Both the position numbers and the translations under genes were made by a program. The notes below the pieces were generated by a model. It did not search any database. It saw only the letters and a program-made list of their open reading frames with translations, and was not told the origin of the DNA. A stretch of DNA of 64,000 nucleotides, from contig OX387182.1 of NCBI GenBank assembly GCA_947561395.2, positions 7,860,595 through 7,924,594 on the forward strand, written 5' to 3'. This DNA is from Buxus sempervirens (lineage: Eukaryota; Streptophyta; Magnoliopsida; Buxales; Buxaceae). Below are positions 3,521 to 58,989 of this stretch, piece after piece (the stretch's first letter is position 1; each line of letters begins with the position of its first letter).

Positions 3521-3658
3521 TATCCGGTAACTCAGACCGGATACAAAGGCTTTAGTAAGATCCGGATAAGTGTACCGGATACAGGGCTTCCATGAATATC
3601 CGGTATGACATACCGGATACAAAGACCAGTCAATGTATCCGGTATGTCAGACCGGATA
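3521..3658. repeat. Palindrome array upstream of antisense gene 1 (A)
   Basis: Four 23-bp palindromes (arms TATCCGGT and ACCGGATA around a 7-base centre, with slight variation) start at 3521, 3559, 3597 and 3636, a period of 38-39 bp. They lie between the TATA box of antisense gene 1 and the 3' end of antisense gene 2. Spacers are less conserved than the palindromes. Likely protein-binding or regulatory sites (inference). Confidence 0.85.
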
Positions 3659-3865
3659 CCGAGAAAAAATGCAAAAAAAGAGCTAAGGATGAAAAAATCC
3701 GAATTTTTACCTGTTTTACCTGCTTACAAGTCATAATTGCATAGAATTGAGAGCAAAAGATGTGCAAGACATGATAGAATGAATAAAAAGTTTTTCATAT
3801 ATATATCTGAAAGTTTTTGTACAGGGATGATAAAAATACATGAAAATGAAAAATATAATCCTAAT

Positions 3866-6553
3866 CTACTCCTGTGCAGGATCATCCCCGCGTCCTCGGC
3901 CGCGTCCACCTCTACGGCGTCTCCCCCAAAGGGCTCGGCCTCTAGAGTATGCAAGAATCCGCTCGGCCGCATGGCGAGGATGCCGACCTACCACCTGCTG
4001 AAGATGATACTCCAAGCAATAATCCTCGAGATCCGGGGGAGGAGCAGGAGTAGAATCTGGAGAAGAAGTCTCGGGCTCAGCAGCAACCGGCCCAACTGGG
4101 CCCTCATCCAAAGCATCCTCTACTCCCGCAGCCCCAGAAGGCCCAGCATCCGCAGCAGAGGGGCCAGGATCAGAAGTAGCTGAGTCCACAGAAAAGAGAA
4201 AAATCAGAAGATTCAGATATAAGGAAGAATAAAAGAAGAGAATAAAAAGAAGATCATACCAGGAATGTCTGCAGAAGGAGCGGGAGGATCCGGCTCGTCA
4301 AGACCAGCCACTGGGGCATCCTCAGGATCAGAGGCCCGGGCAGGAGATGGGTCAGGAATCAGGAAATCATGCCCATAAAAGGCATCCTGATCATGGACCG
4401 GGCCCTGCACAAGTCAAACAAGCATATCAGAATAGCAGAAACAGAAAAATAATGAAAGAAATGAACATATAAGAAGGCCAAGTACCTGTCTAGCCTGGAG
4501 CTCAGCAACCAAGGCCTCCAGCTCCCTGATCCGGGCATCCCGCTGGGCCACGACCGCATCGTGCTCCGCGATCATATCATCGATCGCAGCCCGCTGGCTC
4601 TCGAACCGGTCCCGAATGGAGTTCAGCTCGTGTACCTGCCAGCAAGAACGGAAGCATGGTCAAAAAGGCATAAGGAAGGAAAAGAGGATAAAAATGGGAA
4701 GAATACAAGGCTTACCGTGTCCTCATGGATCCGGATACGGATCCCGCCAATCTCAGTCACCCCAGCACGAGTGGGTCGATCCATCAAGCATCCAATAGAC
4801 ACCCGCTGGAACCACTCGTCATAATCTCCAGCTACTGTAAGCCCCTCCGCATCCAAGAAGTGATCGAACTGATCAATATCAAAGCCCGGGAGGAGTGTGT
4901 CGGGACCCACAGCAGGAGGAGGGACGGGGATGCGAAGTGCGCCAGTGTGCTGGTAGTACAGGCGCTCTCCCAAGTACATCACCCTACCAAGCCTCCCGAG
5001 GAAGCACTGGTAAGGCTGACGTCGGAGATCTCTCTCAAAAGCATCCTGTACTGCCATCTCACGGGCAACTCCGACATCCACGTCATCTGGACGGGATAGA
5101 ATGAGCTGAAAAGAAGCAAAGTGGTCAGATACAGTCAAGATACAGGAAAGAAAATAAAAGAAAAAAATAGAGGACTTACATCAGATCGGCGGGCACGGTC
5201 TAAGTGCACCCGAGCGGTGCGGGGCTGACTCCTATCAGCATCCCGGACCTGGGCTGACCATCGCAAAGCCACTGGAAAATCTGCGACCTCAGGTACCGGG
5301 GAGGGTCGGAAGAAGGTCATATAGGTGTACATGAACACCTAGCAAAAGAAAAATCAGTCAAGAAAAGATATAGCCGAAGGAATTAAACCAGATAGATAAA
5401 TGCAATACCTGTAGAATCTGCCAGAAGAACCGGCTGCTAACTCCATCGCCTCTCGGGGATGCCAGACCTCGAACTGCACGGCACAACCCGGCCAAGATGG
5501 TCCCATAAATGAGTCGGCCCCAGGCCAGCTGGCGGGTCTGATGGAGATCTCTCAAAGCGTCCAAAAAGAGCGGACTGACACCGGTAGTATCCTCTGGGAA
5601 GAAGCAGCTCCCCAGCATCAGCAAGAATACGTGCCGGAAGATAGGAATAAATGCAGCATCATCCACAGCCACAGTCCTATGCCTCCCCTCAAAATGTCGA
5701 GCCAGACTCTCCCGCAGCCAACTAATGGAGAGCCGGCCACTCCGCCCATCCCAAGCAGTAGGAGGTAGGGCCTGATATCCCAAAAGAAGTCCCATATCCT
5801 CCGCAGAAGGCCGCTCTAAGACAATGGTCCGCCCCGTCAGAGGAATGCCGGTAATCATCACAAAATCGGAGGGGCGGATCCCCAGCTCCACGTCCGGCAG
5901 GTGGAACGACTGTGTCTCTGGGAAGTATCTCTCCATCATGGCAAAAATGAGTGGACGGTCGGCTCTGAATGATGGAATACTGAGGAAGTGATCCAGATGG
6001 CACCTCCCAAACTCCCGCCTGAGTGCCGGAGAAAGTGACCGTGCCAACTCGCTGAATCTCCCCCAGCTGCCGCGCAAGTGGGAAGAGTAGTAGGGAAGCG
6101 GCACATCAGCCCTGATGCACATAGAGGGGTGGCTATCCAAGCCATGGAGGAGCTCTGTATCATGCACAGAAGCCCTCAACTCCTCAGAGACCCCTGCCAG
6201 AGCTACAGTAACCCCCTCCGGAGCCGTATCTCTGGCTCTGCCTCGGCCTCTGCCACGGCCTCTCTCGCCCTCAGGGGCCTGATCCTGAACTCTGCCTCTG
6301 CCTCTGCCTCGACCCCGAGCCGGTGCAACCACGGGCTAAATGTCAAAGAGAAAGGTGTGAAGATTGATGTAGGGGGAGAATAGAAGAAAGAAAGAAAGAA
6401 AATTTGAAAGCCTACCTCAGCAGAGCTCTCTCGGGAGACATCTAGTGGCTCCGACACGGTGGCGCTGGAACTCGCCTCCGTACGAGCCCGCGAAGAGGAG
6501 GGCTGATCAGCTGGGTCAGCCTCCTCTCTAACTCGGGAACGACTCCTAGCCAT
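3866..6553 (-). CDS. Antisense gene 2 of element A: plant mobile domain (PMD) protein, seven coding exons
   Basis: Proposed exons are 6553-6416, 6335-5409, 5338-5180, 5105-4716, 4635-4486, 4404-4260 and 4179-3866. All junctions are GT-AG and in phase, giving about 740 residues. Exon 2 begins with RG repeats (RGRGRGR) and then holds the PMD core: SFHLPDVELGI.PSDFVMITGIPL and LLMLGSCFFPEDTTGVSPLF are typical of the MAIL1/MAIN 'aminotransferase-like' plant mobile domain. Exon 5 is a short coiled coil; exons 6-7 are acidic and proline-rich, ending in an RRGGRGRGRG tail. Host PMD proteins act in the nucleus in gene expression and transposon silencing; what an element-borne copy does is unknown. 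The A copy looks whole. Confidence 0.8.
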
Positions 6554-7783: not shown

Positions 7784-7797
7784 AAGTAAACATGCGG

Positions 7798-7859
7798 GAT
7801 CCGGATACTCAGGCCGGATACCCGCAGAGCCTTCATTATCCGGATACACCTACCGGATA
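7798..7859. repeat. Palindrome pair upstream of antisense gene 2 (A)
   Basis: Two 23-bp TATCCGG...CCGGATA palindromes at 7798-7820 and 7837-7859, 39 bp apart, directly upstream of the proposed transcription start of the PMD gene. The same pair is at 56031-56092 in element C. Confidence 0.8.
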
Positions 7860-8442: not shown

Positions 8443-10720
8443 TGTAGACACCCCAAATTGCACAAACAATCATCAAAAAATCATTATCTCCTGGAAAGCC
8501 AGCACAGAATTTGAAGAAAATAAATTTTTGCCTGTATCCGGATACTCAATCCGGATACAAGTACTCCTTCATGTATCCGGAATGATTATCCGGATACATG
8601 TGAGCCTTAATGTATCCGGTACCATGTACCGGATACCTTAAGGCCCTTTGTTATCCGGTCTGATGTACCGGATACCTTAAGTTTGCTCAAAATTAGGGTT
8701 TTCCGAGAGCTTTTCACTTTTACCATCATGTCCCTCATTAAATGAGGGGAAATCGCGGAAATAACCTTAGGGTTTAGGTTGGAGGGGTTCTAGACATTAA
8801 GTTGTGTCTACCAATGACCTTAGCCCTTGCCTATAAATAGGAGCCTCCTCCTTGAGCAAATGGCACACAACTCTTGTTTTGAATTCTCGCAAAGAAGAAC
8901 TCCAAGAGAAGAAGAAAACCGCTGTGGAATCGCCTCCAGCACTCAGGTAAGCCTCAACTTTTCTTTTTATTTTCTGTCTTTACATTCTTAGATCTAGATC
9001 TCTTCTTCTACCTTTCTGTAGTGTAAAGCCTTGTTTGCATGTGTGGAAATCCTTCCCCGGCTCAAAGTATCTCAAGACTCCCCTAGCCGTAAAACGTGAA
9101 GGCGGATCTAGGAGAAACGAGACTGGGGATTGACCCTAGTGCTAGAACCTATGTAGCATAAGGCCTTTTTGATTGATTGTAAACCGTTCCATATTCAAAG
9201 TACCCTTGATTATCTTAAAGAGAACAGAGGGAAACGATAATGGAACGGAACCCTAGGCTATGCTAGAACCTATTTTATTGAATCTATATGCATGTGTATG
9301 GATCTTGCTAGGTTTTTTTCACTTTTGCACACATATCACTATTTTGGCGGGATAGGCTCATATTTGGGGTTTATTGCATTTATTGTGATAAAACTCCAAT
9401 AAATGGCCTAAATCAATTCTGGAGTGTTTTTAAATGTTGTTCAAAGGTTTTGGATTCATCTCACACGAATCACACACTTTTTGTCAATTTTCGGATTTGA
9501 TTTTCTTCAAAAATGGCTTAGCTTGACAGCACCTGTACCCCTACTTCGGACGTCCGTAACTTCATCATCCGGATGAATTTTGGGGCGATTCCAGAACCAT
9601 GGGAAAGGTGAGGCTGTCTAGTTTATGTCCACCAAATTTCATGATTTTCTATCTAGCCGATTTTGGACACCTCTCTGTCGAAGTTGAGTGGACAGTTCAG
9701 GTTCAAGTACAGAACTTGTCACTTCGACGGACCGCCATGTGTTCGTTTTAAGTCCGATTAGAGTGATTTTTGTTTCCGAGTACTCCTTTATGAGTCTATT
9801 TTCAAATCCAGTTGGTTTCATAATTTTTGGATTCCATTTGAATTATTGGTAGCCGATTTACTCAGAACTGCTCATTTGCATTTTTCTGGGTAAATCTGTG
9901 ATCTTCGGGGCCTGTTCGGGAGACCACCCAAGGCACACCCGAAGGGATTTTTGTATGAGGCTAGTTTCTGTTGAAAGATGGCCATACAGACTTCAATCAC
10001 ACCAAATTTCACGGATTTCTATGTAGTGGATTTTTCTAGACAATTTTCCAAAGTTGCCCACTTACCACTTTTAAAAATCCCCAACAGCAACTTCAAAGGA
10101 GCATAACTCCTAGATTTTTCATCGAAATGAAGTGAAATTTTGTATGAGACTCTTATTTACCCTAATCTTTCAAATGGATTTGGTTTGGGTCAATTTAGAA
10201 TTGGATTTGAATGATTTTAAGGCAAATGGCATACTTTTTACCGAATTTTCCGGATTTGATTTAACTTGGTTTTATGCAACCTCTACTTTGATTTCCATCC
10301 TTTGAGATATTCCAGAAGTGATATTGACATAAGAGAGGATCTAAAATCCATTTAGATCTTCATGTGAAAATATCATACATTAATCCTTTTTCAAGGTTTT
10401 CTATGATTTTTAGCAAGCTTTCTTACTTTATTTTTTGCATGAACATACACTTGGCAACCACTTCGTGTGGATGAATGGGGGTGCCTAACACCTTCCCCCG
10501 TTCATAATCTAATCCCCTTACCCATCTCTGGACTTGATTTTCAAGTAGGGTTATTTTTATCCTAGAATTTGTCTTTTGGCTATTTTTGCATATTTTAAAC
10601 TCTTTTGGTGTCCATTCTCACCCCAAAATCATGAATGGTGGCGACTCTCCCAATTTTTGCGTTGAGCCCGTGTGTTGACGGAGGGACGATCACTCCGGTG
10701 ATTTTTTCCCATGCACCACA
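8443..10720 (+). repeat. 3' LTR of element A
   Basis: 2278 bp, TG...CA ends (TGTAGACACC...CACA). It carries a four-unit palindrome array at 8535-8674 (starts 8535, 8574, 8613, 8652) and a TATA box CTATAAATAG at 8831-8840. It is the same family as the LTRs of element C. Confidence 0.9.
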
Positions 10721-13789: not shown

Positions 13790-16089
13790 TGTAGACACCC
13801 TAAAATTGCACGATTTTTGATAAATCTTGAAGGAGAGAAATATTTTATTGGAATTTTCAATTCTTTGCATTGGGTTTGAGATACTTAACCCATTTGAATC
13901 CAAAACGGAAAAGGAAAAGGCCAAAATTCAATCTTTTGTGCAAAGTCAAGCTTTTTCCGGTTGAATTTTGTTGACTTTTGACGCCAAAAAATGAAATATT
14001 TTTTAAAGCCAAATTTCAAGATAATTTTTCCCGGTAATCAGGTTTTTAGCCATGTTATTGCATAAAAGAATTTTTTTAGATTTTAAATCTTGACGAATAC
14101 CTTGGTTTTAACATATTGAACCTTTTTTCCAGACCTGAAAAATCGGAATTTTGCCTAGAACTGGAAAGTTGACTTTTTATTCACTTGGAATTTGGGTCTA
14201 GAACTATTTTTAATGGATTCAAATGGGGGGTGTTTGCTTATTTACATGTAATATCTTAAGTAAATGGACATTTACTTAAACGATATTACATGTAAATAAG
14301 TATTGACTGTGTTAAAATTTGGAAAAAAGGCTTTTTTCTTTGTATCCGGCAACTTAGGCCGGATACAAGTACATTTCTTTGTATCCGGTAGAACATACCG
14401 GATACAAGAGAGCTTTAGTGTATCTGGTATTATATACCTAATACCGGATACCTTAAGGCCCTTGTGTATCCGGCCTGACATACCGGATACACAAGTTTTG
14501 CTCAAAATTAGGGTTTTCCGAGAGCTTTTCACTTTTACCGTCATATCCCTCATTAAATGAGGGGAAATCTCGGAAATAGCCTTAGGGTTAAGGTTGGTGG
14601 GCTATAGACATTATGTTGTGTCTACCATTCTCACCAACCCTAACCCTAACCTTTGCCTATAAATAGGAGGCTCCTCCTCAAGCAAATGGGAATTAACTCT
14701 TGTTTTGAATTCTCGCCAAGAAGAACTCCAAGAGAAGAAGAAAACCACTGTGGGATCGCATCCAGAACCCAGGTAAGCCTCAAACTTTTCTTTTATTTTC
14801 TGTCTTTACATTCCTAGATCTAGATCTATTCTTCTACCTTTCTGTAGAATAAGGCCTTCTTTGTGTGTGAAAACCCTTCCCCGGCTCAAAGTATCTCGAG
14901 ACTCCCCCTAGCCGTAAAACGTGGAGGCGGGATCTAGGAGAAACGAGACTGGGGATTGACCCTAGCATTAGAACCTATGTAGCATAAAGCCTTTCGATTG
15001 ATTGTAAACCGTTTCATATTCAAAGTACCCTTGATTATCTTGAAGAACCGTGTTTAACAGGGAGAGAGAACAGAGGGAAACGATAATGGAACGGAACCCT
15101 AGGCTATTTTAGAACCTCATTTTGATGAATATGTATGCATGCTATTGATCTTGTTTGGTTTTTCACACTTGCATATACATAGTGCCATTTTGGCGGGATA
15201 GGCTCATATTTGGGGTTTATTGCATTTATTGTGATAAATCTCAAATAAACGGCCTCAATCAATTCTAGAATGTTTTCAAATGATTTTTCAAAGATTTGTG
15301 TTCATCTTGCACGAATGGCACACACTTTATCACAATTTTGAGTTGGTTTTATCACAATTGTGATAAAATGTGGTCATTTTATAAAATAATTCAAAAATCA
15401 ACTTTCTTTTACCCGAATGGATTTGAACTGACCCGAACTGGTTTGACCCGGCCCTTTTAGCAATTTGGGCTATTTTAAGCCCACTTGTAGACTGTGGACC
15501 TAAATGGGCCCACCAAGACCCCCTATGCCTACCTATGGGGCCCGCACTATTACTGGCCTAACCCAAGCCCGTTTTCAACAAACGGGCCCAATGTCACTTG
15601 CTATATTGCCTCAGGGCCCAAACCAAGACCATTGGGCCTTGTAAACCCTTAACTTGATTAAATTTGATAAGTATACTAAGAAAGGATTACCCAATAACCC
15701 TATTGAGCACAAGCCTAAACTTGGCAACCCACGGGGTCCTCCAACGGGACCCATATCCGACCCACCTCATCTAAATAAAAAGATAAATAAAAGGGACCCG
15801 CCAGACCAAAAAGTGGCATGTTGGTCTAGGAAAAGTGAAATTCACTCAAAAACTAGGAGACCCGAGGGACCCGTCAGACCGACGGGGCGGGCCGGGGTGT
15901 CTTCGGACTTCCCCAAACGTAATCGAGGACTTAGCTAGATCTCTAATAAGCCGCAGACCAGACTTAGACCCGGATAGGCTATCCCCGTGTCTGCCTGCAC
16001 TTCTCAGGCAGTGGCGACTCAAAAGTCCCGAGACACGCACGAAATCACATGCGCCCCGTGTGCGATCTAGGCAAATTTAGGTGCACACA
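13790..16089 (+). repeat. 3' LTR of element B (mosaic)
   Basis: 2300 bp, TGTAGACACC...CACA. The first ~1.5 kb matches the A/C LTR family, including palindromes at 14343, 14382, 14421 and 14467 and a TATA box at 14658. From about 15430 to the end it matches the last ~700 bp of the D LTR (GGCCCA-rich stretch and the GGCAGTGGCGACTC region near 16010). The switch lies between about 15320 and 15430. Confidence 0.82.
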
Positions 16090-22969: not shown

Positions 22970-22974
22970 GTGAC
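22970..22974. other. Target site duplication of element C (left)
   Basis: GTGAC, repeated at 58990-58994 directly after the 3' LTR. The exact match pairs the two LTRs as one insertion. Confidence 0.92.
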
Positions 22975-35261: not shown

Positions 35262-35332
35262 CCGTATTTTCTTCACGGGCGAGGAAGACCGTAATTCATC
35301 CACGGGCAAGGTGGACCGTATAGAAAATACGG
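35262..35332. repeat. Second CCGTA palindrome array in D 5' LTR
   Basis: Three 17-bp palindromes (CCGTA...ACGG) at 35262, 35289 and 35316, 27-bp period, about 840 bp after the TATA box. Copy at 45195-45265 in the 3' LTR. Confidence 0.75.
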
Positions 35333-36102
35333 TCCAATATGAATGTAACTTAAAAAATGTAATTTTTTCGGTCCGATTGGACTTGATCCGGCCTAAACCG
35401 GCCTGAACCGACCCCTTTAACAGCTTGGGCTGTCTTAAGCCCATTTTTGGACTTTGGGCCTAGATGGGCCCACCAAGGCACCTTGGGCCCACTTGTGGGG
35501 CCCACTTTTGACCGGCCCAAACCGGGCCCGTTTTCAATAAACGGGCCCAAGGCCACTTGATTCGGGCTAACGGACCAAATCCAAGCCCATCAAGCCCAAA
35601 TAAAAGTGTAAATAAATAAAATTTAAATAACCAAAAAAAGGGTTACCCAATAACCCTACTGGGCCCAAGGCCCAACCATGGCAGCCCACGGGTCTTCCAA
35701 CGGGACCCGGATCCGACCCACTTCATTAACTTAATGAAAAGATAAAATCAAATAAAAGGGGACCCACACCATCAACGGTCCCCACCAGACCAAATAAGTG
35801 TGCATGTTGGCTTAGGAATTGGGTGAAAACTAAGTTGACTCAGACCAAGGAGACCCACGGGACCTGTCAATCGACGGGGCGGGCTAGGGTGTCTTCAGGC
35901 TTCCCTAGACGTAACCGAGAACTTGCTCAGAACTCTAATAAGCCGCAGACCAGAATAATTAGGCCCGAATTGGTGCCCCTTTTGTGTCTGCCTGCACCTC
36001 TCAGGCAGTGGCGACTCCAAACCAAATCAGTCCCGAGGCGAGCATCACTTCTTCATGCACCTCGTCGTGCGGCCCGAAATCAGAATGGGGGTGCGCACAG
36101 CT

Positions 36103-36119
36103 TGGCGACTCTGCTGGGA
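36103..36119 (+). other. Primer binding site of element D
   Basis: TGGCGACTCTGCTGGGA, three bases after the LTR, the same tRNA-Arg-type site as in C. Confidence 0.75.
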
Positions 36120-40370: not shown

Positions 40371-40388
40371 GGGCAATTTAACCCGTCA

Positions 40389-41009
40389 GTGCTGATTGGA
40401 CAGCCAGGTCAGAAAGTAGGGGTGTATCTCAGGGAGGGAACCAAATCATTGGCTGCGGTTGGAGACATGCCCTCTACTCCCATTAAGGAATCTAAGACTG
40501 AAAAGGGCTTGGATGCCTACATCTGTGCACTTGAGGATGATCCTCAAAGTAGTGAAGAGGTCACAGGACCACAAGGCCAAAACAACTGTGGATGGATCAG
40601 TGATTCGCCATCGCCTCTAGCCAAAGAAGGAGCGAGTAGCTCTGTAGGATTCTGGTATCAAGGCAGGTTACCTGCCCAAGATTCATCAGTGGATAGCTCG
40701 AGGGTACCCCCTCAAAGGAATACTGAAGGGCCTCCTGACTTAGAAGGAGTGCCACCATCTACTCCTGAGCTCAGGAATCTGCCTGACCCATATGAAAGCC
40801 AGGGTGAGGATTCAGATGATACTTCATCAGAGAAGGAGGATCCGGATGAAGACATGGAAGATGTAGCAGCGCCAGATGAAAGTGATCCAGACGAATCCGT
40901 CAATATGATCACGATTGGTGGAACTGAACCGGAGGAGGTGGTTGAAGTCAAGACACCGCTCAGGAACTGGAGTGCTGTGCCCGTTGCGATCCGCAAGGCC
41001 AACCTTTGA
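40389..41009 (+). CDS. Element D acidic frame after gag
   Basis: 206 codons, strongly acidic in the second half (EDSDDTSSEKEDPDEDME), with no recognised domain. It follows gag closely. May be a remnant of the Gag-protease linker or a chance extension; function unknown. Confidence 0.4.
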   Translation: MLIGQPGQKVGVYLREGTKSLAAVGDMPSTPIKESKTEKGLDAYICALEDDPQSSEEVTGPQGQNNCGWISDSPSPLAKEGASSSVGFWYQGRLPAQDSSVDSSRVPPQRNTEGPPDLEGVPPSTPELRNLPDPYESQGEDSDDTSSEKEDPDEDMEDVAAPDESDPDESVNMITIGGTEPEEVVEVKTPLRNWSAVPVAIRKANL

Positions 41010-43544
41010 AGGGAAGTTTAATTTACTTTAATGCTTTTTGACGTAAATACCTTTTAATTCTGCATAATAAATGAATAAGAAAAAAAATGTGTAAGTGTTT
41101 GGTCAGTGATGACATTGTTCTGAGACCATACCTTTTGGCAGGACCATGATCATGGAAAAATGCCAAGTAGCTCAAAGGTATTTTCAGCTGGGTGCAGGAT
41201 ACTGTCCCATGAGAACCTTGACTGAGCCAAAGGCAGTCATTTCCTGATCTATGCTCTGATTTTTCTCCCAAACCCATCCTTGCACTGGGGCAGAATAACC
41301 CTGGAGAGGAAAGAGAGAAAAAAGAGAGAAAATGTCTAAACCAGCTAAGGGCCGAGACCGACTTGAGCAATTATGTCTTTGAGAAAGGATGAGAGGCCAT
41401 CCTTCATCCATCCTGAATTTTAAGAATCGCTAGTCAAACACTTTGAGCCTGATCGTATTATTCAAATACCTGTGTTGGGTCTAGCCACCCCACACTGGGG
41501 CAAAGCTAAAAAGGAAATAAAAAGGAGGAATTGATTCCTGAATGAATTTGCATGAAACAATCCAATCAAGTTGTCACAACTTCTGTAGAATGATGAAAGG
41601 CCATCTTTGATTTGCATCCCAAATTTCCCTAAATCATACCCTTAGTCAAACCCCTTGAGCCTAACAATTTTCTTTCTTAACCCACTGAGTCAGATACCCC
41701 GAATATGGTACTGGACAAAGAAGAAATGAGGCAAGTATGCAAAAGTAAAGAAAAAAAAAAGAAAAAAAAAAGGAAAAATCATAATGCACACTGGGGCAGG
41801 CCAAGCAAATCAAAAAGCAAGAATCGGCCCCCAGGCAAAAGAAAAATAAAGGAAAAAGCAAAAGGCCTCAAAAGAAAAGAAAAGAAAGTGGAACAGACAT
41901 TGTTAAAGTCCAAACAATCAAGAAAAGGGTAGAACATGACTCAACCCATTTATAAAAAAAAAACTTTGAGCCGTATTCCCTTTCTCTCATAAACCAAGAC
42001 CTCGGCCTTCATTTTGTCCCAACAGAATGTCTTTTCTGATTACAGAAGAAGTGACGATCAGACTTGTGCGGATTTGTGATGAAGGAATCTAAAAGAGGAA
42101 GAATGAGCTTCGGCCAGACACAAAGTAAAACCTGAAAATGAAAAGATTTTGAGCCTTGCCACCTTTCATTTCTCAGACTTAAAACCAAGCTGACGTTTCG
42201 TCCTAATTTCAAGACCTCTTTGATCTATGGGACATGATGTAAAAAGGTTGGCCAAAGATCCTCAAGCTGGAATAGACACTAACCCATGAAAGAACCCTCA
42301 ATTGCCAAATCCTGAAACTTCCCTCAAAAAGGAGAAAATGAGAGAAACCGAAACCTGGGAAAGGGGGAACAATCCTTGAAATACCCCTCAGCTTTTTAAC
42401 CCTTGTTGGCACAAGTCAAGAGTTTCATGGGAATACATGTCGAGCACACTGTCCCAAAACATTTCGAGCTAATAAGGCAAACTTCTGTGGTCATTGGTCT
42501 TGCCTTTTCTTTAAAGATCACTTGCATTAAAAAAAAAAAAAAGAGGACCTATTCTACTTATCTTCTTGATTTCAGATACCTCACCGCTTTGTGAGATCTT
42601 TGCAGGCCATCAAGAAACGCCTTGAAGCCAGAAAAAAGAACAAGCCAAGCAGAGGCAAAGGGGAATTGCAAAAAGATCTCTCGTCCCCAGCGGATTCTAT
42701 TTCCAATAAAGCTCCTTTAATCCCCACAGAGTGCCCATACTCAGCAGAAGCTCCTAACCAAGTGAAAGAAGCAAAATGCGGTAAAGGTTCCCACCAATCC
42801 CCAGTAGAGTCATTCCAAAGAACCTCTACCTTATCACGAGAGGAGCTGACAGAAGAACTCTTCCCCAAGCTGAGAAGGCTATGCCGTGAAAAAAGAGCAG
42901 TGAAGTTCTCAAGACTTGAAGAAGAAAGCAGAATAAAGAAGTTCTGGGCAAATTGGCCCTTTTGTAATTTTTGATTTACCACTTTTGTAAATAGAATAGG
43001 ACAGGTGTGTGAGGTTCTCCGGATGACAGACAGCAGCAAGGCAGCCTCCTCCCGACTCCTTCATTCCTAAACCACCATCATCAACCCTCATCTAGCCTCT
43101 AAGCTCTAAAAAAAAAAAACTCTAAATCTGCTGAAAGATAAAAGAAAGCCACAAATTGGAAATCACCTAAAAGCTTTAATGGAACAAATAAGAAGAAAAG
43201 AACATTGTTGAGCATCTTGCATCAATGCCGAAACAGGTTGGTGAGCTTAAGTCCAATTCTCAATTTACCTCTTCTTAATCAAAATCAAGAAATTGCTCCA
43301 AGAAACCCGCGAAGTGTGGGTGAGCAAGCTTCGAGATCCAGGTAGGAACCAATCAGGAGTTGCTCCGAGAAGCCCGCGAAGTGTGGGTGAGCAAGCTCCA
43401 AAAAACTTAGTGGAAACCGTTTCGTGTTTCCACTGCTTTGAAAATCAAGAGGACTTGAGCTCGTTGATCATGTCGACCGAAGTGCAAAGTGCAAAAATAA
43501 GGTTCTTTTTCTTCTTTGCCGTTCATCCCCAAGGTGACTCCGGC
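41010..43544 (+). other. Element D non-pol region
   Basis: No pol motifs found. 41940-42240 resembles the post-integrase spacer of A, B and C, as if the enzymes had been lost between gag and this spacer. A basic 127-codon frame at 42591-42974 has no recognised domain. A ~40-bp direct repeat (CCCGCGAAGTGTGGGTGAGC) occurs at about 43305 and 43374. Confidence 0.55.
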
Positions 43545-43556
43545 AAAGAGGGGCAG
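43545..43556 (+). other. Polypurine tract of element D
   Basis: AAAGAGGGGCAG, one base before the 3' LTR; identical to A, B and C. Confidence 0.8.
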
Positions 43557-43557
43557 C

Positions 43558-46032
43558 TGTAGACACCTGATTTTTGCCCCCCAAAAATGCAGAAAATGAA
43601 ATTTTAATTAAAAAGTCAAACCCTGAGGGGACCGAAATTTGACTTTTTGATCCAAAGAAAATTGGCCATCAAACTTCCCTTCATTGAAAAGAGCATTTCG
43701 ACACGGTTCTAACGCAACTGAGTTTGCCAGAATCGGGGTCCGGATGAGGAGGTTGTGAGCAGGTCAAACTTTTGGGGAAGCGAAAGTTGACTTTTTGCTC
43801 GACCCCAATTCAGCTGCCAAACTTAATCCCAGTGGATAGTGTGTTCCGAGCTGATTCCAACGACACCAAATTTACTGAAATCGGACATCGGACGGAAAAG
43901 TTATGGGCAGTTGAAATTTCAAAGAAAGCTGCCCATGTGGCAAAACAGCAGCAAAACGCAGAATAAATGAGTTAAATAAATAAAATAATCATTTAATAAA
44001 CATATCTTTATTTTTTAATAATATTTTAATAAAAGAATCTCGTTTTTATAATAAAATAATCAAAAAATCGGATAAAAATCTTTAAATAAACCAAATTGAA
44101 TAAAGGTTTGAAATCCAAACATTTTAAAAACGTGCTGGACCGTATTTGAAGTACGGGCGAGGCATGCCCGTACTTCAACTACGGGCAAGCTTCTAGAAGA
44201 GGACGCGTGGCGGGACACGCGTCCCGTACGGAAGAATCTGCGATAATTGCAAATATTCGTTTTTCGCCCGTATTTGAATTACGGGCAAGGCACGCCCGTA
44301 CTTGAAGCACGGGCAAGGCATGCCCGTAGTTCAAATACGGGCACGAAAATTTTGCCTATAAATAGAGAGGCCACCCCCCTCATTTGAGAAAAGCCTTCTT
44401 CCTGGCCGAAACCCTCTTCTTCCAGGAGCTCTCCATACCCAAAACCCTGTCCAAATTCCACCATCCCAAAACCTAAACCTCTTTTAATCCCCAAATTACC
44501 CCTATACTCCTAAATTACCCCAAAACCATGCTCAAATCTCCTTCAATTTGGTCTTGAACCCATCCACCTTAACCAAACTCTTCCCAATTCTTCCCCGCAA
44601 AATTTGGAGGACGCGGAAGCGCTGCTCAAATCATCGGAGAACCATAACACCAACCAAACAAACAGTTATATTGTAAGTATGTTCTTACCTTAAATTAAAT
44701 GAATTTTGATTTTATTTTCTCTTCCTCACTACTTCTTTTCGTTTTTATGTTATTTCTAACATTGTCTTGAGTGTTGCATGTGATGGGGAATTGCATCTAA
44801 AAGTAATTGTTCCTATGCAAGAAAAAAAAAGGTGATAACAAAAGGGTTATCAAAAGGTTTCAAAAATGGAAATTTGACCCCATTTGATCACCATTATGAG
44901 AAGGAGATTGAAGTTATTTTTGAACATATGATGTCCCCTGTAAATCACCTCTTTCCCATTCCTAAAAGTTGATGATCAATAACTAAGAAGGGGACTTGCT
45001 TGATCAAAGAACAAAAAGAGGGAAAAGATGGTCATTTGAACTAAAAGAAGGAAATGCAATATACTGAAGGAGCTGGAACCATCCTGGAAGTTGCAGAAAG
45101 CTCCTAAGAAGGCTACGGGATTGATCCCGAAAAGAATCGGCTGCAAAAATGCAAAACAAGCCGCGCCCGTAAACTCAGGTCGGTCCGGGCGGAACCGTAT
45201 TTTCTTCACGGGCGAGGAAGACCGTAATTCATCCACGGGCAAGGTGGACCGTATAGAAAATACGGTCCAATATGAATGTAACTTAAAAAATGTAATTTTT
45301 TCGGTCCGATTGGACTTGATCCGGCCTAAACCGGCCTGAACCGACCCCTTTAACAGCTTGGGCTGTCTTAAGCCCATTTTTGGACTTTGGGCCTAGATGG
45401 GCCCACCAAGGCACCTTGGGCCCACTTGTGGGGCCCACTTTTGACCGGCCCAAACCGGGCCCGTTTTCAATAAACGGGCCCAAGGCCACTTGATTCGGGC
45501 TAACGGACCAAATCCAAGCCCATCAAGCCCAAATAAAAGTGTAAATAAATAAAATTTAAATAACCAAAAAAAGGGTTACCCAATAACCCTACTGGGCCCA
45601 AGGCCCAACCATGGCAGCCCACGGGTCTTCCAACGGGACCCGGATCCGACCCACTTCATTAACTTAATGAAAAGATAAAATCAAATAAAAGGGGACCCAC
45701 ACCATCAACGGTCTCCACGAGACCAAATAAGTGTGCATGTTGGCTTAGGAATTGGGTGAAAACTAAGTTGACTCAGACCAAGGAGACCCACGGGACCTGT
45801 CAATCGACGGGGCGGGCTAGGGTGTCTTCGGGCTTCCCTAGACGTAATCGAGAACTTGCTCAGAACTCTAATAAGCCGCAGACCAGAATAATTAGGCCCG
45901 AATAGGTGCCCCTTTTGTGTCTGCCTGCACCTCTCAGGCAGTGGCGACTCCAAACCAAATTAGTCTCGAGGCGAGCATCACTTCTTCATGCACCTCGTCG
46001 TGCGGCCCGAAATCGGAATGGGGGTGCGCACA
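43558..46032 (+). repeat. 3' LTR of element D
   Basis: 2475 bp, nearly identical to 33625-36099 (about nine differences seen), and followed by the ACATG duplication. Confidence 0.95.
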
Positions 46033-49617: not shown

Positions 49618-51339
49618 CTAGTCTCCTAGCCGCTCCTCAAGCTCCCGAATCCGAGCTGCCTGAGCTGCAATGACTCCTGAAGCCCCCTCTGCAGCGGGAT
49701 CACTCAGGAAGGAAATAACCTCATCTGAAAGGGCCTGCTTGATCCTCATACTCCTAAGGCTGGCCAAAGTAGCCTGGTACTTCTGCCGGATCATACGGAC
49801 CTCGAAGCAACGGGCCTGCCTCTGTTCCTCCAGCTTCTCTTCCACGGCAATACGACGTGAGATCTGCTCCTCAAGCTACCTCTCCAAATAAGTGCCCTGT
49901 ATCCTGAGCTCCTGGGCCTCCCGTACCCATATCTGCTGAAGCCGCTTATGAGAAGCCCGCTCAGACTCTAGAATGTCCTCATAGGTGGGAGCCAAGACTA
50001 CAAGAGGATCTTCGGGTACTGGGGCCTGAGTCTGTATCTGTTCCTTGATCAAGAAGAGATAATCCTTCACATGGGCTTCTGAGAAGACGGGACCATGCAT
50101 GAAGCGGACATAGGACCACTCTTTCATCAACCAGGCATTCAGCTTCATAGAAAGGGGCCCAAGACGATCCTCATATCCACATGGGATGATAATCCCCTGG
50201 GTCGCACGGAACTGACAAAGGACCCGCAGAGGAAGATACAGCACTGCATGCTTCAGGCCCGCTAGGATCAGAAAGTTGCGGTCACGGAAGCTAATCACTG
50301 TCGCTGCATTGGGCTGATAAGTGCCAGGCCATCTCACCTGGTCCTCCTGAAGTGAGCCCAAGAAAGTGAACCAGCCCTGTTTACCACCTGGGATATTGGG
50401 GCACCCCCTGTTGCTCATCAAGAGGGGGACTTTTAGACTCGGGAAGAAGTGTCGATTGATCTCTTCAATCTGGCTCAAATGATCAAGTAGCCAAAGCTGC
50501 AAAGGAAGGGAGATATGTCAGCACATTGTTAAAAAATAAAAAATAAAAAATAAAAAAAAAGAAGCGAAAAAAGGCAAAAAGAAAGCCAAAAAGCAAGAAA
50601 AAAAAGAAATAAAAAAAAAATTTTTTTTTTACCTGCAGGATCTGGGCACATGCTAGGAAGCGTTTCGACTTCCTATTGTAGCAGTCGGTCAAAGCTTGAT
50701 ATATTCCAGCTAAAATCATAGGGGCCAACCTCTCCCTCTCCCGAACCTGGCATATCACTGAAATCAAGGCCAAGTCCACCTCATCATCATCCCGTGGGAA
50801 AAGCAACTGGTTGACCACTATCAGGGTCAACGCATTGAATCGGGCCTCCTTGTTCTCCCCTCTCAAAAGCTTCTCAGTCAAAAAAGCCTTAGATAGGGTC
50901 AAAAGGGTGTCAGAATCCCCCAAATCCTTCTTCCCTATGCCCAAAAAAGTAGAAGCTTCCTTTTGTAACTGGGCCTTAGAGGTGGATTCACCACCTTCTC
51001 ATCAAACCTCAAGCCCAGGATGGTTTCCACCTCCTCAATGGTTGGGGTCATCTCATGGTTCCCGAAACGGAACAAGTTGAGGTCAGGAACCCAATGACCA
51101 ATCATGGCCTCTATAATCTCCCACCTGAAGGGAACCTTGGGAATAAGCAAGATGTGGCCTAGATTAATTGTACCCCATCTCCTCTCCTCATCCAGGGTCA
51201 TAGAGTTAACCCACCTTGTGTAAAAGGAATCCACAGGGTTGTACCTAGTGAGATTTGGGGGTTTTGATCTAAAAGGTTGTTTTGCAGGGGAGGCAGTGTG
51301 GACAGATAGTAATGGGGCAGAAAATGATCCGGATTCCAT
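49618..51339 (-). pseudogene. Antisense gene 1 of element C: DUF7745-like
   Basis: Exons at about 51339-50633 and 50496-49618, same intron position as in A, TATA box on the minus strand at 51451-51460. Motifs as in A: MTPTIEEVETILGL in exon 1 and YLPLRVL in exon 2. Closely similar to the A copy but with about two breaks, so probably not functional here. Confidence 0.75.
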
Positions 51340-51470
51340 TGGATGTGATGGGAGCAAGCTAGAACTCAAAAGGAGGAAGAAAAAGGCGAAAAAGGGGGTT
51401 TCTAAACTCAAAAATTCGTAAAAAAATGCTCAAATCCCGAGGCTGGTTGCATTTATAGCATTTTTTAACG

Positions 51471-51610
51471 TATCCGGTAACTCAGACCGGCTACAAAAGG
51501 CTTTAGTAATATCCGGATAACTATACCGGATACAAAGGATGCCATGAGTATCCGGTATGTTATACCGGATACAAGGACCAATCAATGTATCCGGTATGTC
51601 AGACCGGATA
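51471..51610. repeat. Palindrome array upstream of antisense gene 1 (C)
   Basis: Four palindromes at 51471, 51510, 51549 and 51588, exact 39-bp period, 11 bp above the TATA box, as in A (3521-3658). Confidence 0.85.
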
Positions 51611-51812
51611 CCAAGAAAAAATGCAAAAAAAGAGCTAAGGATGAAAAATCCGAATTTTTTACCTGTTTTACCTGCTTACATGTCATATTTGCAAGAAATT
51701 GAAAACAAAAGATGTGCAAGACAAGATAGAATAAAAAGTTTTTTCATATATATGCGAGTTTTACAAGGAATGATGAGATCCATACATAAAAAAAGGAAAT
51801 CCTAATCTACTG

Positions 51813-54579
51813 CTAATGTGCAGGATCATCCACGCGTCCTCGGCCGCGTCCACCTCTACGGCCTCTCCCTCGAAGCGCTCTACCCATAGAATAGGCAAGA
51901 ATACGCTCGGCTGCATGGCGAGGATGCCGACCCACCACCTGCTGGAGCTGATACTCCAGGCAATACTCCTCGATGTTTGGGGGCAGAGCAGGAGTGGAAT
52001 CTGGGGAGGAAGCCTCTTGCTCAACAGCAACCGGCCCAACTGGACCCTCAGCCATAGCAGGCTCTGCTCCCGCAGCTCCAGAAGACCCGGCAGCAGAAGA
52101 ATGGCCCGGAGCAGAAACATCTGGATCAACAGGGAAAAAATCAGAAATGAAAGCATCAGAATAAACCAAAGAGAAAAAATTAAAGAAAGCATACCAGGGA
52201 TATCTACAGCAGGTACTGGAGGATCCGGATCCACTGGGTCAGCAGTAGGGACCTCCTCCGGCTCATGAACCATCACTGGAACAGCCGGGGCATCCGCAGG
52301 AGCAACTGGGGCATCAGTAGGTGGAGCATCACCAGGATCAGCAGCTGGGACGTCCAAAGGATTAGAAGCCCGAGCAGGAGATGGGTCAGGAATGAGGAAA
52401 TCATGCTCAAAAAATGCACCCTGATCATGGACCGGGCCCTGCACAAGTCAAACAAGCATATCAGAATAGCAGAAACAGGAAAATGAAGGAAATGAAAATA
52501 TAAGAAGGCCGGATACCTGTCTAGCCTGGAGCTCAGCAACCAGGGCCTCCAGCTCCCTAATCCGGGCATCCCGCTGGGCCACAACCGCATCGTGCTCGGC
52601 AATCATATCATCGATCGCGGCCCGCTGACTCTCGAACCGATCCCGAATGGTATTCAGCTCATGTACCTGCCAACAAGAACAGAAGTAGGGTCAGAGATGC
52701 ATAAGGGGAGAAAAGATGAAAATATAAAGAGTACAAGACTTACTGTGTCCTCATGGATCCGGATACGGATCCCGCCGATCTCAGTCACCCCGGCACGAGT
52801 GGGTCGATCCATCAAGCATCCAATAGACACCCTCTGGAACCACTCGTCATAATCTCCAACTACTGTAAGCCCCTCCGCATCCAGGAAGTGATCGAACTGA
52901 TCAACATCAAAGCTAGGGAGGAGTGTGTCGGGACCCACAGCAGGAGGAGGGACGGGGATGCGAAGTGCGCTGGTGTGCTGGAAGTACAGGCGCTCTCCTA
53001 AGTACATCACCCTACCAAGCCTCCCGAGGAAGCACTGGTAGGGCTGACGTCGTCGATCTCTATCGAAGGCGTCCTGTACCGCCATCTCAGGAGCCACTCC
53101 AGCATCCACGTCATCAAATCGGGACAGAAGGAGCTGCAAAAAAGGGAAACTGTCAGGTACAGTCAAAATACAGGAAAGGAAATAAAAGAAAAAAGATAGA
53201 GGACTTACATCAGATCGGCGGGCACGGTCTAAGTGCACCCGGGCAGTACGAGGCTGGCTCCTATCAGCATCCCGGACCTGGGCCGACCATCGCAAAGCCA
53301 TTGGGAAATCTGCGACCTCAGGTACCAGGGATGGACGGAAGAAAGTCATGTAGGTGTACATGAACACCTGGTAAAAGGAAAATCGGTCAGGAAGGGATAA
53401 AGCCTAAACGAATTAACCCGGACAAATGAATTCAATACCTCTAGAATCTGCCAGAAAAACCGGCTGCTGACTCCATCACCTCTCGGAGATGCTAAGCCTC
53501 GAACCACTCGGCACAGCCCGGCCAGGATGGTCCCATAGATCAGCCGACCCCATGCTAGCTGGCGGGTCTGATGGAAATCTCTCAAGGCGTCCAAAAAGAG
53601 CGGACTGATGCCAGTCGTATCCTCCGGAAAAAAGCAGCTCCCAAGCATCAACAGAAAAACATGTCGGAAGATCGGTGCAAAGGCTACATCCTCCACAGAG
53701 ATGGTCTCGTGCCTCCTCTCAAAATGACGAGCTAGACTCTCCCGCAGCCAGCTAATGGAGAGCCGGCCACTCCTCCCATCCCAAGCAGCAGGTGGCAGGG
53801 CCTGATATCCCAAGAGAAGGCCGATGTCCTCCGCAGAAGGTCGCTCCAAGACAAGGGTCTGCCCCGTCAAGGGAATGCCGGTGATCATCACAAAATCCGA
53901 GGGGTGGATCCCCAACTCCACGTCCGGCAGATGGAACGACTGAGTCTCTGGGAAATATCTCTCCATCATGGCAAAAATGAGTGGACGGTCGGCTCTAAAT
54001 GATGGAATACTGAGGAAGTGATCCAGGTGGCACCTCCCAAACTCCCGCCTGAGTGTTGGGGAAAGCGACTGAGCTAACTCACTAAATCTGCCCCAGCTGC
54101 CTCGCAAATGAGAGGAGTGATACGGAAGCGGCACATCTGCCCTGATACACATGGAAGGGTGGCTATCCAAGCCACGGAGGAGCTCTGTATCATGCACAGA
54201 GGCCCTCAACTCCTCAGAAACTCCTGCCAAAGCTACAGCAACCCCCTCCTGAGCCGTATCTCTGGCTCTGCCTCGGCCTCTGCCACGGCCTCTCTCGCCC
54301 TCAGGGGCCTGATCCTGAACTCTGCCTCTGCCTCTGCCTCGACCCCGAGCCGGTGCAACCACGGGCTAAAATTCAAGAGAAAGATGTGAAGGTTGTGTGG
54401 GAAAGCAGAGTAGAAGAAAGAAAGAAAGAAAAATTTTTGAAAGCCTACCTCAGCAGAGCTCTCCCTGGAGACATCTAGCGGCTCCGACAGGGTGAACTCG
54501 CCTCTGTCCGAGCCCGCGAACTGGAGGGCTGATCAGCAGGGTCAGCCTCCTCTCTAACACGGGAACGACTCCTAGCCAT
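51813..54579 (-). pseudogene. Antisense gene 2 of element C: plant mobile domain protein
   Basis: Seven exons at the same places as in A: about 54579-54449, 54365-53439, 53367-53209, 53133-52744, 52666-52517, 52438-52195 and 52120-51813. The PMD core is in exon 2 (SFHLPDVELGI, LLMLGSCFFPEDTTGISPLF). Exon 6 is about 100 bp longer than in A and encodes extra Asp/Pro/Ala-rich sequence. The gene is nearly whole, with about one break. Confidence 0.8.
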
Positions 54580-56030: not shown

Positions 56031-56092
56031 GATCCGGATACTCAGGCCGGATACAAACAAGGCCAAGTGTATCCGGATACACCTACCGGATA
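56031..56092. repeat. Palindrome pair upstream of antisense gene 2 (C)
   Basis: Two 23-bp palindromes at 56031-56053 and 56070-56092, 39 bp apart; same as 7798-7859 in A. Confidence 0.8.
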
Positions 56093-56096
56093 CCAA

Positions 56097-56283: not shown

Positions 56284-56691
56284 CAAACTTGTGCTATAAT
56301 TCTTACTATTTTCTCAAAATCCTATTTTTGTCTTGAAATCCACCTTACAGCCACGAGAGCTCTGTGGAATTTGGGACAACCTTGGGAAATGTGCCTGGTC
56401 AAAAAGATGATATCCACTCAATTTCCAACTTGGTTTGATAAAAAATCAGTTTTTCAAAAAATCCTATTTTTGGGCTTAAAATCCACTTCATAGCCACGAG
56501 AGCTCAGTGGAATTTAAGAATTATTGGAGAAATGCCCCCTTAAAGTGAGGGCTTTTTTGGCAAATCTCCACCCAAAAATTGTTTTCTATAAAATTGAATT
56601 GAACCGAGCAAATCATGCTCAAGGGAATGCAATTTGGGCTTGTCTACTCTTTGCAGCTCACTGCTTCGCAGCTCCCACAAAGAGGGGCAGT
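56284..56691. other. Pre-LTR region and polypurine tract (C)
   Basis: Homologous to 8036-8442. The polypurine tract AAAGAGGGGCAG lies at 56679-56690. Confidence 0.75.
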
Positions 56692-58989
56692 TGTAGACAC
56701 CCCAAATTGCACAAACAATCATAAAAAATCATTATCTCCTGGAAAGCCAGCACAAAAATTGAAGAAAATTAACTTTTACCTGTATCCGGATACTCAGGCC
56801 GGATACAAGTACTCTTTCCTGTATCCGGATACTCATACCGGATACATGTGAGCCTTAGTGTATCTGGTACCATGTACCGGATACCTTAAGGCCCTTTTTT
56901 ATCCGGTCTGATATACCGGATACTTTAAGTTTGCTCAAAATTAGGGTTTTCCGAGAGAAATCACTTGTTACCATCATGTCCCTCATTAAATGAGGGGAAA
57001 TCTCGGAAATGACCTTAGGGTTAAGGTTGGGGGGGTTCTAGACATTAAGTTGTGTCTACCAATGACCTTAGCCTTTGCCTATAAATAGGAGCCTCCTCCT
57101 CAAGCAAATGGCACTCAACTCTTGTTTTGAATTCTCGCAAAGAAGAACTCCAAGAGAAGAAGAAAACCGCTGCAGAATCGCCTCCAGAACTCAGGTAAGC
57201 CTCAACTTTTCTTTTTATTTTTTGTCTTTACATTCCTAGACCTAGATGTCTTCTTCTACCTTTTTGTAGAATAAAGCCTTGTTTGTATGTGTGGAAATCC
57301 TTCCCCGGCTCAAAGTATCTCAAGACTCCCCTAGCCGTAAAACGTGAAGGTGGATCTAGGAGAAACGAGACTGGGGATTGACCCTAGTGCTAGAACCCAT
57401 GTAGCATAAGACCTTTTTGATTGATTGTAAACCGTTCCATATTCAAAGTACCCTTGATTATCTTGAAGAACCGTGTTTAACGGGGAGAGAGAATAGAGGG
57501 AAACGATAATGGAACGGAACCCTAGGCTATCTTAGAACCCTATTTGGATGAATATGTATGCATGCTATTGATCTTGTTGGTTTTTTTACACTTGCACATA
57601 CATATCACTATTTTGGCGGGATAGGCTCATATTTGGGGTTTATTGCATTTATTGTGATAAATCTCAAATAAATGGCCTCAATCAATTCTGGAATGCCTTT
57701 TGGATGATTTTTAAAGTATTTGTGTTCATCTTGCACGAATCACATATTTATATCAATTTTCGGATTTGGTTTTTCTTCAAGAGTGGCCTAACTGGACAGC
57801 ACCTGTACCCTTACTTCGGACGCTCATAACTTCATCGTCCGGATGAATTTTGGAGCGATTCCAGAACCATGGGAAAGGTGAGGCTGTCTAGTTTATGTCC
57901 ACCAAATTGCATGAATTTCTATCGAACAGATTTTTGACACCTCTCTGTCGAAGTTAAGTGGACAGTTCAGGTTCAAGTACAGAACTTGTCACTTCGATGG
58001 ACTGCCATGTGTTCGTTTTAAGTCCGATTCGAGTGATTTTTGTTTCTGAGTACTCCTTTATGAGTCTATTTTCAAATCCAATTGGGTTCATAATTTTTGG
58101 ATTCAATTTGAATTATTGGTAGCCGATTTACTCAGAACTGTTCATTTGTACTTTTCTGGGTAAATCTGTGATCTTCGGGGCCTGTTCGGGAGACCACCCA
58201 AGGCACATCCGAAGGGATTTTTGTATGAGGCTAGTTTCTCTGGAAAGATGGCCATACAGACTTTAATCACACCAAATTTCGTGGACTTTTATGTAGTGGA
58301 TTCTTCTAGAAAATTTTCCAAAGTTGCCCACTTACCACTTTTAAAAATCCCCAGCAGCAACTTCAAAGGAGCATAACTCCTAGATTTTTCATCGGAATGA
58401 AGTGAAATTTTGCATGAGACTCTTATTTACCCTAATATTTCAAATGGATTTGGTTTGGTTCAATTTAGAATTGGATTTGAATGATTTCAAGGCAAATGGC
58501 ATACTTTTTACCGAATTTTCCGGATTTGATTTAACTTGGTTTTGAGCAACTTGAGCTTTGATTTCCATCTTTTGAGATATTCCAGAAATGATATTGATAT
58601 AAGAGAGGATCTAAAATCCATTTAGATCTTCATGTGAAAATATCATACATTTGACATTTTTCAAGGTTTTTCATGATGTTTAGCAAGCTTTCTTACTTTC
58701 TTTATGCATGAACATACACTTGGCAACCACTTCGTGTGGATGAATGGGGGTGCCTAACACCTTCCCCCGTTCATAATCTAATCCCCTTACCCATCTCTGG
58801 ATTTGATTTTCAAGTAGGGTTATTTTTATCCTAGAACTTGTCTTTTGGCTATTTTTGCCTACTTTTGATTCTTTGGTGTCCATTCTCACCCCAAAATTAT
58901 GAATGGTGGCGACTCACCCAATATTTGCGTCGATCTCCGTGTGTTGACGAAGGGAAGATCATTCCGGTGATTTTTTCCCATGTCTCACA
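56692..58989 (+). repeat. 3' LTR of element C
   Basis: 2298 bp, pairs with 22975-25272. Palindromes at 56783, 56822, 56861 and 56900; TATA box at about 57078-57089. Followed by GTGAC. Confidence 0.95.

Follow-up and report, generated by a model that had tools for sequence, protein, structure and literature searches.

Regularly spaced palindromes form probable operator arrays at the promoters of an Ogre-like LTR retrotransposon in Buxus sempervirens

Introduction

In Sireviruses, the long terminal repeats (LTRs) carry high-copy CGG-CCG palindromes clustered just before the TATA box, and further copies precede the additional gene, there ENV; the function of these palindromes is given as unproven in the accessible part of the report (Bousios et al., 2010, PMC2829016). 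In the VANDAL elements of Arabidopsis, which are Mutator-like elements (MULEs), the part of the literature available to us describes repeats of family-specific motifs in non-coding DNA, an accessory protein and switching of the motif, with motif binding and demethylation demonstrated for the accessory protein VANC (PMC5735166). Here, we describe arrays of a 23-bp palindrome at the promoters of an Ogre-like Ty3/gypsy LTR retrotransposon with two antisense genes, analyzed in a 64-kb stretch of the 677-Mb genome of Buxus sempervirens (C1:7860595-7924594, hereinafter the window).

Three further systems bear on this element. According to the accessible text of PMC6317226, elements of the Ogre clade are very large, possess an extra RNase H and carry extra genes with the plant mobile domain (PMD), the latter in 57% of Ogre elements. 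In Retand elements with TRP28, extra genes in antisense orientation lie between pol and the 3′ LTR, where tandem repeats also occur, and a regulatory role has been proposed for these genes (PMC11963269, as far as its accessible part goes). The Arabidopsis PMD proteins MAIN and MAIL1 have been connected both with a promoter motif and with the silencing of transposons in the available portions of two reports (PMC7156037, PMC9899485). Phased palindromes at promoters of Ogre elements are not described in the portions that we consulted of the open-licence PMC literature, a scope outside which most subscription journals fall.

Results

A 23-bp palindrome recurs at a near-constant 39-bp pitch

The repeated unit has the form TATCCGG-N9-CCGGATA, that is, two TATCCGG half-sites across a 9-bp gap. 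The window holds nine arrays with 32 such palindromes, 23 of them exact and nine with one to three mismatches; a recount returned exactly the array starts and the total given in the initial annotation of this DNA. Distances between neighbors within these arrays (n=23) are 39 bp in 20 cases, 38 bp in two and 46 bp in one, so that the near-constant spacing of 38-39 bp which that annotation had described holds for 22 of the 23. We additionally fetched 20 stretches of C1 (192 kb), 18 of which were picked for exact sites listed in them, while two (L008 and L024) adjoin such stretches; when these are taken together with the window and sites with at most two mismatches are counted, 104 of 112 adjacent distances equal 39 bp.

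The same geometry extends across the genome. Searches recovered 28,399 exact 23-bp sites, as against five for a reversed-pattern control. Freeing the inner gap to 4-14 bp raised the number only to 28,460 (control 11), which means that 99.8% of these sites have a gap of exactly 9 bp. The arrangement CCGGATA-N16-TATCCGG, corresponding to the 39-bp period, occurs 17,900 times (control 0), whereas neighboring pairs at any gap from 2 to 30 bp number 20,411 (control 89), a total in which some longer overlapping matches are counted. Core-to-core distances between CCGG tetranucleotides in the window are most often multiples of 13 bp (39, 13, 78, 26 and 52). Chance and low complexity as the source of the pattern are ruled out by these reversed controls together with 200 dinucleotide shuffles of the window, in which no exact site appeared.

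In IMG/VR the motif was found in 107 stretches, only two of which hold more than one site: one with three sites (L127) and a viral contig that is phage-like by its open reading frames (L086), where intergenic CTTATCCGG...CATCCGGATAAG inverted repeats at 3500-3800 differ in spacing. Irregular clusters of GTACAA-type inverted repeats were seen in two stretches (L013, 541-900; L015, about 4123).

The arrays occupy fixed places in an Ogre-like element

Two copies of a long LTR retrotransposon lie in the window. Copy A is represented by its 3′ part (3-10713), with a 3′ LTR at 8443..10713 on the forward strand. Copy B has both LTRs, at 22975..25272 and 56692..58989 on the forward strand, which are 98.3% identical and bordered by the target-site duplication (TSD) GTGAC (22970-22974 and 58990-58994). 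Directly after its 5′ LTR lies TGGCGACTCTGCTGGGGA, a candidate primer binding site with a presumed match to tRNA-Arg. Nested within copy B, and interrupting it, is an element of a related but different family (33625..46032, forward strand; TSD ACATG), in which gag was detected and no pol was found among the scanned open frames. Across 45906-48257 of the window, the pol domains run in the order RT (reverse transcriptase), RT_RNaseH (192-296), RVT_3 (351-469), Integrase_H2C2 (562-617) and rve (636-733). The order RT-RNase H-integrase is that of Ty3/gypsy and not of Ty1/copia elements, and an additional RNase H lies between RNase H and integrase. Because of this extra RNase H in pol and the presence of PMD extra genes, the host element of the arrays fits an Ogre-like Ty3/gypsy LTR retrotransposon, although Retand shares the extra RNase H (PMC6317226, accessible text).

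In the U3 regions, four-unit arrays on the forward strand are found in the 3′ LTR of copy A (8535..8674, with a TATA box at 8832 after a gap of 157 bp) and in the 5′ and 3′ LTRs of copy B (23066..23205 with a TATA box at 23363, and 56783..56922 with one at 57080). A further forward-strand array (14343..14489), carried by a fragment of an LTR from a diverged subfamily, has one degenerate unit and one 46-bp step. On the reverse strand, the promoter of antisense gene 1 carries four units in copy A (3521..3658, with units at 3521, 3559, 3597 and 3636), from which a TATA box (3501..3507) lies 13 bp downstream, and four in copy B (51471..51610; TATA box 51451-51457). Two-unit arrays on the same strand mark the predicted promoter of antisense gene 2 in copy A (7798..7859, followed by a conserved inverted repeat) and in copy B (56031..56092, with a degenerate three-mismatch unit at 55954). 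The ninth array, of four units, lies in the 5′ leader of copy B (26777..26916, forward strand), and its first unit bears a symmetric double change, TAACCGG..CCGGTTA.

The fetched stretches repeat this layout. At a threshold of at most two mismatches they contain 37 site clusters, 32 of which occupy one of the four usual positions (15 in U3, six in the leader, five upstream of antisense gene 1 and six upstream of antisense gene 2); two more belong to another family (L022, see below), and the other three are single two-mismatch sites near the 3′ end of antisense gene 1 that are probably due to chance. With the window and the stretches taken together, a TATAAAT was found within 220 bp after the array in 27 cases, comprising 19 U3 arrays, seven upstream of antisense gene 1 and one other (L009, at 174 bp on the opposite side of its array). 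The gap to this box is 157 bp in 16 of the 19 U3 cases, 156 bp in one and 168 bp in the two from the diverged subfamily, and 13 bp in all seven cases at antisense gene 1.

At antisense gene 2, some 1.4-1.7 kb separate the array from the open frame downstream of it. In five aligned copies, the two-unit array is followed by the conserved inverted repeat, by a pyrimidine-rich stretch of moderate conservation and by about 1 kb that is poorly conserved, after which come a TGTAG acceptor-like site and the conserved coding start. We infer that the interval comprises a 5′-UTR exon and an intron, a reading that would place the array at the promoter. The inverted repeat itself, AAGTCGCG-CGCGAC-CGCGACTT (7762-7783 and 55995-56016, reverse strand), is retained in the five copies with one change in copy B, and no TATAAAT or TATAAAA occurs near it on the reverse strand. 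The initial annotation had an array upstream of every transcription unit of the element family; this stands for the LTR U3s and antisense gene 1, and for antisense gene 2 if its predicted promoter is accepted, but it is slightly too strong, because no start site was identified from the sequence for the leader array.

The leader also contains, after its palindrome array, tandem units resembling hairpins (27217-28748 in the window; from L007 9823 to L008 665 in another copy). The unit length is 41 bp in the latter copy and about 71-81 bp in others. In the 41-bp units the arms covary (TCTAAAA/TTTTAGA in 11, TCTATAA/TTATAGA in five and TTTGAAA/TTTCAAA in three), all 19 being fully paired, around a fixed loop, GCCTCTGAA; seven matches to this loop elsewhere are unpaired. 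Among the longer units, all seven pairs form in 24 of 64 and five or six pairs in 40 of 64. These units are perhaps selected RNA hairpins in the leader of the genomic RNA.

Palindrome arms are retained while centers and spacers change

We aligned 40 pieces containing arrays (18 U3, seven leader, seven gene-1 promoter and eight gene-2 promoter copies), having dropped one of 19 U3 copies (L023) whose inclusion depended on its own array. Variants were split into singletons, which are mostly young, and those shared by at least two copies, which were inherited by active elements. The arms have 22 singleton and two shared variants in 196 columns, as against 27 and 40 in 126 columns of the centers, 47 and 42 in 159 columns of the spacers, and 92 and 96 in 918 columns of the flanks. 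The arms thereby differ from centers, spacers and flanks with Fisher p-values of 9 × 10–6, 3 × 10–4 and 5 × 10–5, respectively, whose exact values, though not the contrast, are weakened by kinship within the sample and by singletons that are not purely neutral (those in the antisense genes have a ratio of amino-acid-changing to silent variants, N/S, below 1). When CpG columns are excluded, the three differences persist (p=3 × 10–4, 3 × 10–3 and 2 × 10–3), and an earlier version with all copies gave the same contrast. At each arm position, the consensus letter is present in 66 to 74 of 74 distinct sites. Since shared variants are scarce in the arms only, active elements have evidently altered center and spacer letters while retaining the arms; selection thus appears to keep the palindrome arms and their spacing while the letters between them change. 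The depletion of insertions and deletions in arrays relative to flanks is not significant (four events in 482 bp of arrays versus 20 in 919 bp of flanks; p=0.08).

The spacers, mostly 16 bp long, are not entirely free, in that they have a central purine/pyrimidine pair. Among distinct spacers, position 29 of the unit is a purine in 67 of 69 and position 34 a pyrimidine in 67 of 69, the two positions being symmetric about the spacer center. If 16 slots are treated as independent (10 from this family and six from L022), purine is found in 15 and pyrimidine in 14, with binomial p-values of 3 × 10–4 and 2 × 10–3 before correction for 16 positions. Genome-wide, both positions match in 16,391 of the 17,900 exact pairs, which are related copies. 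This suggests, post hoc, that the whole 39-bp unit may be one binding module. The earlier description of conserved cores with drifting spacers accordingly holds for the cores, in which variants are rarely shared, and needs qualification for the spacers, which do drift but mostly keep their length of 16 bp and their central pair. The spacers did not prove to be as conserved as the cores, nor was the motif equally common or equally spaced in unrelated DNA.

The antisense genes encode PMD proteins under purifying selection

Each copy has two antisense genes, located between pol and the 3′ LTR; the first matches DUF7745 and PMD, the second PMD. In copy A, gene 1 (1682..3390, reverse strand) starts with an ATG at 3390 in exon 1, which encodes DUF7745/PMD, and a second open frame is read as exon 2; gene 2 (4623..6332, reverse strand), with an RG-rich N-terminus and a PMD, probably has several exons. 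In copy B, the corresponding reverse-strand regions are 49876..51411 for gene 1, in three open frames, and 51761..54362 for gene 2. The PMD profile PF10536 matched three antisense open reading frames with E-values of 3.8 × 10–14, 1.2 × 10–13 and 2.9 × 10–13 and two pieces more weakly, whereas five of the 10 antisense pieces gave no PMD match. Inspection by eye shows a charged, coiled-coil-like C-terminus in the gene 1 product and GRGRGR repeats at the N-terminus of the gene 2 product, features that would fit dimeric DNA binding.

For shared variants, N/S is 0.07 in gene 1 exon 1 (seven copies), 0.13 in exon 2 (eight copies) and 0.05 in gene 2 (seven copies), with an excess of amino-acid changes among singletons (pooled p=5 × 10–7); both antisense proteins are thus under purifying selection. 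When the genome was queried with exon 1 of gene 1, 126 of 8,849 candidates were scored and gave 127 matches, which comprise the best-scoring ones only; by our own count, at least 20 of the matches listed contain an internal stop. Elsewhere in the genome, some loci have two PMD genes with long open frames, which point the same way and are separated by about 3.4 kb (C10:32400939 and 32404363, C12:33557562 and 33560985, and others). Two such loci that we scanned (L025 and L026) had no palindrome arrays.

Related families use a different palindrome or share the same one

The nested element carries an array of its own in the U3 of its LTR (34206..34409, forward strand), built from GCCCGTA-N7-TACGGGC in 28-bp steps with one 100-bp gap, and a second copy of this array at 44139-44342. 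The array ends about 15 bp before the element's own TATA box (34424). Exact sites of this second palindrome number 11,266 genome-wide (control 0). Degenerate palindromes of the GCCCGTA type at 27 bp were also observed further into the nested LTR (35261-35333 and 45194-45266).

A third element, in stretch L022 (LTR 2447-5299), matches the nested family over parts of the LTR (74-76%) and over the leader (78-79%), and its TATCCGG arrays, with a 39-bp pitch, stand before a TATATAAA box and a second time deeper in the LTR. Its arrays and those of the main family use the same code without matching flanks. The expectation that the motif would be confined to one family therefore fails in its strict form, as the L022 family also uses it; the exact sites listed from the first 5.92 Mb of C1 all fall within arrays of LTR elements. 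Thus, the code varies among related families under a constant arrangement, and one code serves two families whose flanks do not match. Of all our observations, this pattern hints most strongly at a reader that acts in trans and that a family can lose, gain or borrow.

Discussion

A model of operator arrays and their reader

We propose that the arrays are promoter-proximal operator arrays of the Ogre-like element. A dimeric sequence-specific DNA-binding protein would hold each palindrome by its two TATCCGG half-sites, and a row of two to four such dimers, one every 39 bp, would stand just upstream of each promoter. One factor could thereby co-regulate sense transcription from the LTR promoter and transcription from both antisense promoters, setting their outputs together. 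Taken alone, this operator-array part is very probable. The interpretation offered in the initial annotation is supported in part: phased binding of a dimer at sense and antisense promoters finds good support at the level of sequence in the near-fixed arms with their free center, the fixed inner and outer spacings, the rarity of shared variants in the arms only and the constant distance to the TATA box.

The model would further have the reader encoded by the element's antisense genes, so that it controls its own promoter and the LTR in a self-controlling circuit, with activation, repression or protection from silencing as its possible action. What favors such a reader is that related families have different codes, TATCCGG with a 39-bp and GCCCGTA with a 28-bp pitch, under a preserved order of array and TATA box, as in the co-evolution of VANC and VANDAL. 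We put forward operator arrays with an element-encoded reader only tentatively, as a proposal slightly more doubtful than secure; among the candidate readers it ranks first, narrowly ahead of a host transcription factor. The more specific version, in which a dimer of the antisense PMD/DUF7745 protein reads a family-specific lattice of palindromes at its own promoter and the LTR, and related families evade or exploit each other through switching or sharing of the code, is a possibility we hold to be rather doubtful.

Several observations weigh against the proposal. The leader array, as noted above, has no start site identified from the sequence, and the copies in which conservation was measured are related and were drawn solely from the window and from the first 5.9 Mb of a single chromosome. 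A search of solved structures gave no match to the antisense proteins at E <0.1, the best PDB match being a ribosomal protein at E 0.22. A scan for at least three perfect palindromes with 6-bp arms in 300 bp found no array at any of 12 other PMD loci, which were chosen among the best of 117 scored Pfam matches rather than among near relatives of this gene. In the accessible portions of the literature, we found no demonstration of DNA binding by PMD or DUF7745, and the MAIN/MAIL1 reports leave direct DNA binding open (PMC7156037, PMC9899485).

Alternative explanations

The operators could instead be read by a dimer of a host transcription factor, such as a stress or developmental regulator, acting on TATCC/GGATA-type half-sites (which we take to be a MYB-related or GARP core) and recruited to all promoters of the element, with the antisense proteins doing something else; this is quite possible, if somewhat doubtful. 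The shared code of the L022 family, whose arrays lack matching flanks, would be accommodated by such a factor. It is also favored by the Sireviruses, which as Ty1/copia elements have like arrays upstream of the TATA box and of an extra gene although a survey, in its accessible part, reported PMD and other extra domains from Gypsy-type and not Copia-type elements (PMC9289625), and whose Citrus motif AATCCGGCTWRCCGGATT shares ATCCGG half-sites (PMC2829016, accessible part). The Citrus-Sirevirus type of site, AATCCGG-N4-CCGGATT, has no occurrence in this genome (control 10). A single common target would not be expected to leave related families of one genome with unrelated palindromes at the same place, and none of the exact sites sampled from the first 5.92 Mb of C1 lies in a host promoter. 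A special case of the element-encoded reader, by analogy with VANC, would have the antisense protein remove DNA methylation at the arrays. Family-specific arrays in non-coding DNA alongside an element-encoded accessory protein under selection are consistent with it, as are the CCGG in each arm, which provides CG and CHG methylation contexts, and the lower rate of CpG change in U3 arrays than in flanks (seven of 152 cells versus 16 of 133; p=0.03). That difference is small and equally explained by selection, however, and singleton changes per CpG column are similar in arms (9/56) and flanks (6/46, or 9/46 in the version with all copies); we accordingly regard anti-silencing of this kind as unlikely.

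Two further explanations dispense with protein binding to duplex DNA. If the palindromes acted as hairpins in RNA or single-stranded DNA, for packaging or as a source of small interfering RNAs, one could point to arms that can pair (a 7-bp stem with a 9-nt loop), the presence of all arrays on the full-length RNA, the compensated double change in the first leader unit, and palindrome-rich regions of Sirevirus LTRs that are hotspots of small RNAs (PMC5311732, accessible text). Yet here the arm letters are near-invariant and the loops free, and a 39-bp pitch has no obvious use in RNA, while the hairpin-like units in the leader of one copy (L007/L008) show the opposite, with covarying arms and a fixed loop. 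We therefore dropped this as the principal explanation and consider it very improbable. That the arrays are a mutational by-product, homogenized by tandem duplication and gene conversion and devoid of function, is hardly credible: there are traces of a common origin, such as ACTCA in the center of first units, but homogenization would have copied centers and spacers too, and these differ between units with only the arms alike, while the same pitch is held by arrays with different flanks and by a second family.

Implications

For PMD and for the antisense genes of Ogre and Retand elements, the palindrome, which seems to be under selection at the promoters of such genes here, offers a concrete DNA target with which to ask what they bind. 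If the PMD protein reads it, this would help explain the retention of such genes in many giant plant retrotransposons; if a host factor does so, the palindrome names the host input that drives an abundant component of the genome. The use of two palindrome codes by related families of one genome makes co-evolution of motif and reader testable. Should an element-encoded reader with switching codes prove true, PMD proteins would be sequence-specific regulators and a retrotransposon counterpart of VANC.

Comparison with known systems

The arrays are a real and strongly constrained feature, in all likelihood a regulatory one, and they recall several described systems in part. The main text of the Ogre report (PMC6317226) contains no form of the word palindrome; the Retand elements differ in carrying TRP28 rather than PMD, and in the accessible part of that report palindromes appear only in the title of a reference (PMC11963269). 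The DOWN promoter motif tied to MAIN/MAIL1, CATGCAGTTT, is not palindromic in the portions available (PMC7156037, PMC9899485). VANC and VANDAL may be regarded as a functional analogy: in the sampled stretches the Buxus motif arrays likewise lie in non-coding DNA of the element, but the carrier is an LTR retrotransposon and no MULE, whereas VANDALs are DNA transposons, and the VANC21 motif YAGTATTAY occurs in one orientation, with no form of the word palindrome in the main text of the report as accessible to us (PMC5735166). The closest known feature is the Sirevirus LTR motif, with which the arrays share CGG-CCG palindromes in the LTR before the TATA box and copies before an additional gene, namely antisense gene 1 and, by its predicted promoter, antisense gene 2. 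They are not a member of that class, because the carrier belongs to the other LTR superfamily; unlike the Ty1/copia Sireviruses with their ENV, it has antisense PMD/DUF7745 genes and a 23-bp palindrome with a fixed 9-bp center and a near-fixed 39-bp pitch, and beyond what is described for the Sirevirus motif, the comparison of shared and singleton variants points to selection on the arms.

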